Shown here piece by piece: positions 34,851 to 35,413 of a stretch of 56,711 nucleotides of DNA; position 1 is the first letter of the stretch, and the number at the start of each line of letters is the position of its first letter. The notes under the pieces are model-generated. The model saw nothing but the letters and a program-made list of their open reading frames with translations. It searched no databases and was not told the DNA's origin. The stretch covers positions 1 to 56,711 of the forward strand of contig NZ_JACJRV010000047.1 in the NCBI RefSeq assembly GCF_014697475.1. The letters are read 5' to 3'. The position numbers and the translations under genes were made by a program. This DNA comes from Nostoc sp. FACHB-152. Its GTDB lineage: Bacteria; Cyanobacteriota; Cyanobacteriia; Cyanobacteriales; Nostocaceae.

Positions 34851-35103
34851 TTAATAAATTTACTTATTGATGAAGTTGTTGGAATCTGTCGAGACGTTGT
34901 ATTGCAATGTTTCTATATTCGTATACAGATTTATATAAGTTTATGTTATGAAATAAGAATTAGAGCCAGGAGCAGATAAGAGGATGGAAAGGCTCTTAGT
35001 GTAATTGTTTGATTGTTATGTATCTTCATAAGCTATCTGAAAACAGACATTAAAGATATTTAACTTTTTTTGTCAATTTATGTTGACTTATCTTAATAAT
35101 CTT
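34851..35103. other. Spacer after the hydrolase gene
   Basis: Very AT-rich, without a coding frame. GAGCCAGGAGCAGATAAGAGG near 34962 is a purine-rich stretch of unknown meaning. It runs into the HLR1-like site and small RNA described next. Confidence 0.45.
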
Positions 35104-35121
35104 GTTACAGTTATTTACATA
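35104..35121 (+). promoter_or_regulatory. HLR1-type direct repeat (RpaB site)
   Basis: GTTACA at 35104-35109 and TTTACA at 35114-35119 are direct repeats whose TTACA cores start exactly 10 bp apart, followed by TA. This fits the HLR1 pattern of two (G/T)TTACA(T/A)(T/A) units separated by 2 bp, the binding site of the response regulator RpaB. It lies upstream of a TATTAAT (35171-35177) that could be a -10 element for the small RNA, a placing that would fit activation in low light. Confidence 0.6.
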
Positions 35122-35182
35122 AGTTAATAAATAAAGAAACAAATTCAATCATCGCTACTAAGAGAAAGGATATTAATTTGGC

Positions 35183-35291
35183 TTCTTTTGCAGTTAGCTA
35201 AGAACAACGGATTTCTGTATCGGTAACTCCCATCGACATTTGGACTTCTCCTAATCACCTCGGTCTAAACAACAGCCGAGGTTTTTTCTTT
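35183..35291 (+). ncRNA. Candidate small regulatory RNA, PsrR1 (SyR1)-like
   Basis: About 110 nt, no coding frame. From 5' to 3': a possible weak stem (AGTTA with TAACT, about 35192-35228), a pyrimidine-rich single-stranded stretch GGACTTCTCCTAATCACC (35242-35259), and an intrinsic terminator (CCTCGG 35258-35263 with CCGAGG 35276-35281, then TTTTTTCTTTT). CTTCTCCT is complementary to ribosome-binding sites (AGGAGAAG), the usual way an sRNA blocks translation. An HLR1-like RpaB site lies 62-79 nt upstream. PsrR1, which represses photosystem I and antenna genes and is controlled by RpaB, has this architecture. The identity is inferred; the exact 5' end is a guess from the -10-like TATTAAT. Confidence 0.6.
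35258..35291 (+). terminator. Orphan intrinsic terminator (end of the small RNA)
   Basis: CCTCGG/CCGAGG six-pair GC-rich stem with a 12-nt loop directly followed by GTTTTTTCTTTT-type T-tract. No protein gene ends within 400 nt upstream on this strand, which is the main reason to suspect a non-coding RNA gene. Confidence 0.9.
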
Positions 35292-35343: not shown

Positions 35344-35391
35344 GGCAATAGGCAATGGGCAATAGGCAATAGGTAATAGGCAACAGGCAAC
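35344..35391. repeat. GGCAATA heptanucleotide repeats
   Basis: About seven tandem copies of GGCAATA with variants GGCAATG, GGTAATA and GGCAACA. Related arrays occur at 39568-39596 and, inverted, at 39719-39751. Typical STRR sequence of heterocystous cyanobacteria. Confidence 0.9.
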
Positions 35392-35413
35392 AGAAAAGAA
35401 GGCCGGTAACGAT

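Follow-up and report, generated by a model that had tools for sequence, protein, structure and literature searches.

A PsrR1-family small RNA gene in Nostoc sp. FACHB-152 with apparent remnants of a psb34 transcription unit

The window analysed here is a 56,711-nucleotide stretch of the Nostoc sp. FACHB-152 genome, in which an intrinsic terminator stands with no protein gene before it. The first-pass annotation had read the locus as the local PsrR1 or a functional equivalent and had suggested a covariance-model comparison, which bore this out: in a cmscan run of the whole window against 4227 Rfam families, the PsrR1 model (RF02701) gave the sole match at the gathering threshold, and the match extended over model positions 1–79 of 79. 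Since 61.2 bits were reached against a cut-off of 42 over the full model, the window gene qualifies as PsrR1 under the curated Rfam model, and its assignment to the PsrR1 family of small RNA genes is supported at the level of sequence.

35203 to 35286, plus strand: PsrR1 core with terminator (RF02701; cmscan 61.2 bits, E = 4.1e-9).
35257 to 35291, plus strand: Rho-independent terminator, folding as an 8-bp stem with a 10-nt loop at 35257–35282, followed by a T-run.

The terminator, previously placed at 35258–35291, was recovered by folding; it is missing from the motif scan of the window, which takes loops of 3–8 only, the loop here being 10 nt. The CU-rich stretch described ahead of it was found as ACTTCTCCTAATCACC at 35244–35259, and the reported lack of a protein gene also held, the ORF list of the window containing no frame of at least 50 aa overlapping 35104–35291, and no ATG occurring on the plus strand within 35118–35291. 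Taken over its full length, the predicted RNA structure was not unusually stable (z −0.97). With a family model, R1, trained on 30 family elements of both forms (psb34-attached and ORF-less), the window core scored 76.7 bits, the window copy being among the 30 training elements.

The gene also has a candidate promoter of its own, with a site for the regulator RpaB.

35083 to 35111, plus strand: sigma-70-type core promoter TTGACT-N17-TACAGT (promoter scan and conservation; predicted start near 35118).
35104 to 35121, plus strand: HLR1 (RpaB site motif) GTTACAGTTATTTACATA, one mismatch to KTTACAWW-N2-KTTACAWW, overlapping the −10 box and the predicted start.

KTTACAWW-N2-KTTACAWW is the published HLR1 consensus (available text of PMC13421787), and the RpaB-type GTTACA/TTTACA repeats pointed out earlier were confirmed as this motif; at the motif level, with one mismatch at 35104–35121, the gene has the promoter with HLR1 that is looked for in a PsrR1. 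Sites in the promoter scan were no commoner in the window than in shuffles (6, shuffle mean 7.1), and it is conservation that carries the case: the same −35/−10/HLR1 arrangement was present in 25 of 30 family loci (absent in L005, L006, L042, L062 and L074), and among family elements the first HLR1 half is frequently GTTATATT, doubling as −10. This favours TTGACT-N17-TACAGT, with HLR1 over its −10 box, as the window promoter, and since the promoter common to relatives is the one at 35083–35111, transcription probably starts near 35118, with HLR1 at about −14 to +4. An HLR1 within −38 to +23 of the start is associated with repression in low light (available text of PMC13421787), and this predicted repressor geometry fits the high-light induction of PsrR1. 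Lack of conservation in relatives had been named beforehand as evidence that would count against a PsrR1 gene; core, terminator and HLR1-like site were kept there, with some relatives' copies lacking a recognisable HLR1.

The origin of the gene was approached through its relatives in the same genome. RF02701 had three places in this genome, the window (61.2 bits), contig C180 (34.6 bits) and contig C159 (33.3 bits), the latter two below the cut-off. Both of these lie directly after a 56-codon frame, identified by NCBIfam as Psb34, a photosystem II assembly protein (93.5 and 93.9 bits, cut-off 45), and each frame has a promoter in which an HLR1-like sequence, with two mismatches, lies about 210 nt upstream of the match. 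L002 (on C180) and L003 were not taken for chance matches, since each has psb34 ahead of it and an HLR1-like site in the promoter. Seven psb34 matches occur in the genome, three of them with an R1-type 3' end; the third of these, on C136, was found by model R1, and R1 matched neither the C130 nor the C109 copy.

Alignment of the window gene with psb34 matched at both ends, the middle of the frame being gone, and two remnants were located.

35064 to 35143, plus strand: promoter region homologous, by local alignment, to same-genome psb34 promoters.
35172 to 35201, plus strand: vestige of the psb34 C-terminal codons INLASFAVS plus stop, ATTAATTTGGCTTCTTTTGCAGTTAGCTAA (psb34-tail matrix score 15.98).

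Against the psb34 promoter of L002, 35064–35143 scored 91 (best of 300 shuffles 37), or 65 with HLR1 masked (shuffle maximum 31), and random 110-mers from the window reached at most 36. Every shuffle was beaten in 18 of the 20 psb34 promoters compared, and in 17 of the 20 with HLR1 masked, where L041 tied and L049 and L042 failed. The vestige, just ahead of the PsrR1 core, had the top score of all 113,364 positions when both strands of the window were scanned, using a matrix of 20 psb34 tails from other genomes that scored 32.9 to 45.7 themselves, apart from one misread frame (L033) included among them. By these alignments, the window gene retains promoter homology to psb34 and a vestige of its frame, a construction from a psb34 transcription unit that the first-pass annotation did not note. 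With no reading frame remaining and no ATG in 35118–35291, the window copy does not qualify as a 3'UTR-derived sRNA; the mRNA-plus-3'-end arrangement is present in paralogues such as L002. We regard it as highly probable that the gene is a stand-alone PsrR1 gene of the Nostoc group descended from a psb34 unit, with promoter, HLR1 and 3'UTR kept and the 56-codon frame nearly lost, and we infer the direction of change to be from the psb34 unit to the ORF-less gene.

PsrR1-like 3' ends of protein genes were then counted in wider surveys. Of the 243 genomes surveyed in the order, 51 had an RF02701 match at E 0.001 or better, 40 of them above the cut-off, with multiple copies in many genomes. In G128, G181 and G235, every copy recovered was a psb34 3' end. 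Of 104 compiled matches, 44 followed psb34, 3 pgr5, 4 a psb34–pgr5 pair and 53 neither, and above the cut-off (n = 73) the corresponding numbers were 31, 3, 2 and 37, so that a psb34 and/or pgr5 frame preceded 51/104 overall and 36/73 above the cut-off, with L042 classed as 'none' despite its psb34 and L038 counted as pgr5 though frameshifted. PGR5, a cyclic electron flow protein, was identified by NCBIfam at 125.1 bits (cut-off 50). Since RF02701 was built outside this analysis, the association with psb34 is not self-made, with the proviso that the seed of the model may contain such 3' ends. In a draw of 292 genomes across the phylum, own order included, 38 had a match, all 38 in that order. 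The model was silent in 14 of 14 control genomes, Synechococcus elongatus among them; since PsrR1 is reported from S. elongatus strains (available text of PMC6091082), the survey counts are low.

In the family, R1 matched in 51 of 60 genomes and psb34 was present in 59 of 60. Among 139 R1 matches, 77 lay at most 400 nt 3' of psb34 (75 within 16 nt), corresponding to an R1-type 3' end on 77 of the 150 psb34 genes among the matches listed, a count that is not independent because R1 was trained on both forms. HLR1-type promoters were seen on psb34 copies, and on some pgr5 copies, in many Cyanobacteriales. The psb34 (ssl1498) and pgr5 (ssr2016) mRNAs resemble the window gene in having an HLR1-type promoter and a PsrR1-like 3' end in many members of that order, and differ from it in keeping a protein reading frame. 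Four loci (L021, L043, L077 and L096) have psb34 and then pgr5 before the PsrR1-like end, and in such rows photosystem II assembly, cyclic flow and an antenna-repressing RNA may share one transcript. A match in a Butyrivibrio MAG (L148, 1 of 41 loci) was discarded as chance, having no psb34, no HLR1 within one mismatch and no T-run terminator in 70 bases.

The strongest rival account is an ancient, plain stand-alone PsrR1, with psb34 genes having captured the PsrR1 gene or its 3' end. Capture does not place psb34 codons with a stop immediately ahead of the RNA in genes that lack the ORF, yet these were seen in the window and in L018/L214, L226, L227, L228, L232, L238 and L240, and the homology of the promoters also argues against it. 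Of 62 R1 matches away from a listed psb34, 60 were retrieved (the window itself and G287:C239 were left out), and a psb34 tail was detected at p < 0.01 in 23 of the 60, as nearly intact frames (L225, L263), partial frames (L217, L219, L245) and short vestiges (L214, L227, L228, L232, L226). The remaining 37 failed p < 0.01 for the tail, some clear PsrR1 genes (L215, L220) included. The copy of a genome of the same genus (G265) had a decayed tail only (score −9.1, p = 0.08), and 4 of 8 ORF-less loci of the order survey (L005, L006, L009, L062) failed the 0.05 level. A parallel series involves pgr5: within a single genome (G024), PsrR1-like ends of the same kind follow a pgr5 frame that is intact in L035, frameshifted in L038 and internally shortened, with most of the frame gone, in L024, again against capture. 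In genus g68, the pgr5 tail DNGKKLGLLA plus stop was found in the three ORF-less copies examined (L010, L012, L019).

Synteny counts in favour of the capture account, since ORF-less copies form syntenic groups. The window copy is positioned after a 560-aa hydrolase gene, and this neighbour is common to the ORF-less copies of the own genome (G000), G265, G264, G249 and G278 and of seven named Nostocaceae loci. Among the 30 best hydrolase loci of the family, the element was present in 6 (L345 weak, 28.9 bits), and psb34 in none within the stretches covered; frame loss in place is thus putative, and a psb34 copy may first have moved to the hydrolase locus. In G094, an intact psb34 with a PsrR1-like end stands where relatives sharing its left neighbours have an ORF-less RNA: of its left row of five genes, within the stretches covered, L155 shares four in the same order, G273 and G201 three, L135 two, and L147 and G229 one, the relatives having one additional gene in between and the right side of G094 differing. 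In a tree of 96 elements (83 columns, state labels partly hand-assigned), the G094 copy clustered with three ORF-less copies (support 82/88), and 13 changes between the psb34-attached and ORF-less states were counted (bootstraps 11–14; shuffled labels 31.5), 4 of the 13 being forced by well-supported branches. Of the 60 R1 rows, the tree and motif set took those of at least 55 bits from genomes other than the 13 of the order survey; the partly intact L217, L219, L225 and L245 were hand-labelled psb34, and the 41-locus set (including L148) contributed 20 ORF-less rows, with L136 entered as psb34. L178–L184 were retrieved and left out.

The pairing core also bears on this alternative.

35230 to 35254, plus strand: conserved pairing stretch CCATCGACATTTGGACTTCTCCTAA, antisense to a Shine-Dalgarno-plus-ATG start region.

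In 33 ORF-less elements, namely those not fetched by the pairing motif, mean column identity was 0.85 over 35234–35243 and 0.79 over 35244–35254, with 0.63 in the 5' linker, and in 42 psb34 3' ends it was 0.76 and 0.73 over the same columns, with 0.76 in the linker. GACATT was kept in 20/33 ORF-less elements vs 5/42 psb34 3' ends (p 1.5e-5), most ORF-less rows having been picked at at least 55 bits, which biases them toward good cores. A core better kept in the ORF-less copies speaks for capture; set against the psb34 codons, the homologous promoters and the G024 series, the account is nonetheless unlikely, and descent from psb34 is preferred.

An sRNA starting near 35183, with HLR1 acting as an activator site, is improbable. 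It goes back to the TATTAAT that the first-pass annotation had taken for a −10-like box, which is present at 35171–35177 and overlaps the psb34 vestige; for this reason it was dropped as a promoter, and the conserved promoter at 35083–35111 has HLR1 over its −10 box. The reading that scarcely deserves credence is a decayed psb34 pseudogene whose 3'UTR was kept solely as a terminator, for which L003 (core missing) and L002 (core altered) could be cited. Against it stand the 61.2-bit match to a curated sRNA family and an ORF-less core that outlasts the preceding linker while the frame decayed; TTCTCC by itself was no better kept in ORF-less elements (23/33) than in psb34 3' ends (26/42).

Classically, psaL is a target of PsrR1. 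Start regions of 12 genes were tested for pairing, and the strongest predicted duplexes were apcF (−31.1 kcal/mol), pecA (−25.6) and cpcB (−25.0), with energies computed without accessibility and these three genes named by reading of their proteins. The background consisted of 88 start regions from the same genome, with a mean of −13.7 and a best value of −25.7, and apcF beat 88 of 88. The other 9 of the 12 start regions did not stand out, including psaJ (weak, −17.5) and psaL (−13.0, rank 0.49 against background), which was not supported as a target in this genome. Pairing with photosystem I and antenna start sites had been expected at the outset, with psaL, psaJ and cpc leaders suggested for target prediction; in the predictions the antenna genes apcF, pecA and cpcB stood out, and psaL and psaJ did not. 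The earlier reading was thus supported as to PsrR1 identity and revised as to the position of promoter and start and as to targets, complementarity in this genome being strong for apcF, cpcB and pecA and not for psaL. In relatives, apcF was usable in 25 of 29 loci (L365, L367, L368 and L370 were excluded, their starts being unrecognised), and 20 of the 25 fell below the 5% level and 9 below 1% (124 background regions), and cpcB showed moderate complementarity (3/30 below the 5% level), conserved coding and Shine-Dalgarno sequence being able by themselves to preserve part of such pairing. The PsrR1 targets given in the available text of PMC6091082, either predicted or demonstrated, include apcF, cpcA, cpcB and apcE.

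Under the preferred reading, descent from psb34, RpaB bound at HLR1 would in low light cover the −10 box and the start and block transcription, and in high light its release would allow an RNA of about 174 nt to be made. The core CCATCGACATTTGGACTTCTCCTA would then pair with antenna mRNAs around the Shine-Dalgarno sequence and the start codon, the best prediction being apcF, followed by pecA and cpcB, and would lower translation of these mRNAs. In relatives that keep psb34, one transcript would supply the photosystem II assembly protein together with the RNA sequence that represses the antenna. High-light induction of PsrR1 and a feed-forward loop with RpaB are described in the available text of PMC13421787, PMC12850537 and PMC6091082, and the same portions of PMC12850537 and PMC6091082 report that the induction is strong in Synechocystis and in S. 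elongatus UTEX 2973. The window gene resembles PsrR1/SyR1 (RF02701) of Synechocystis sp. PCC 6803 and Synechococcus elongatus in its full-length covariance match, CU-rich core, 3' terminator and promoter HLR1, and differs in predicted length (about 174 nt, against 131 nt in the available text of PMC6091082 and PMC6202907), in a 5' part derived from a psb34 gene, and in predicted targets in the antenna rather than psaL. As in 3'-end-derived sRNAs (cyanobacterial case in PMC8136909, available text), the RNA of psb34 3'UTR forms would share a transcript with a protein gene, processing there being putative; unlike them, the window gene is detached from the reading frame.

The locus carries a known RNA that the first-pass annotation had identified correctly, and its make-up points to a protein-gene origin, a link not found reported in the literature searched. 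A search made without Georg 2014 yielded no report joining Psb34 and PsrR1, searches on PsrR1 in Nostoc and on UTRs nothing on a psb34/pgr5 link, and a search on sRNA birth from pseudogenes no relevant precedent. PsrR1 and pgr5/ssr2016 appear as separate genes in the available text of PMC12850537 and in separate parts of that of PMC10743179, and pgr5 in a reference only in that of PMC13421787. We lean, with some reserve, towards a wider reading, in which PsrR1 is fundamentally a 3'UTR module belonging to high-light mRNAs under RpaB control, namely psb34, pgr5 and psb34–pgr5 mRNAs, and stand-alone genes were repeatedly born by frame loss, psb34 being the source in the Nostoc group and pgr5 the source elsewhere. 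If it is true, many cyanobacteria would repress antenna synthesis through the tail of a photosystem II assembly or cyclic-electron-flow mRNA; it suggests that cyanobacteria without a stand-alone psrR1 could draw PsrR1 control from psb34 and pgr5 3' ends, coupling antenna shut-down to photosystem II assembly and to cyclic electron flow. Bacterial small RNAs are rarely observed at the point of their origin; in this case related genomes contain intact, half-decayed and gutted versions of one gene, making the step from mRNA to regulatory RNA traceable in sequence and testable at the bench, and a gutted psb34 unit would be one way in which a regulatory RNA can be born.

Several minor observations were made alongside. 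Second PsrR1 copies in genus g68 (L040, L050, L051, L052, L054, L055, L057) lie about 40 nt after a gene of about 590 aa, by eye a subtilisin-like protease, with no HLR1 within two mismatches in the preceding 330 nt. In the own genome, the psb34 copy on C109 is within a longer open frame of 165 aa, and a weak extra element without psb34 (L224, G000 C68:89341-89430, R1 37.4 bits) is perhaps a decayed copy. Downstream of the terminator, at 35350–35395, the window has short tandem-like repeats of the GGCAATA/GGCAACA type.
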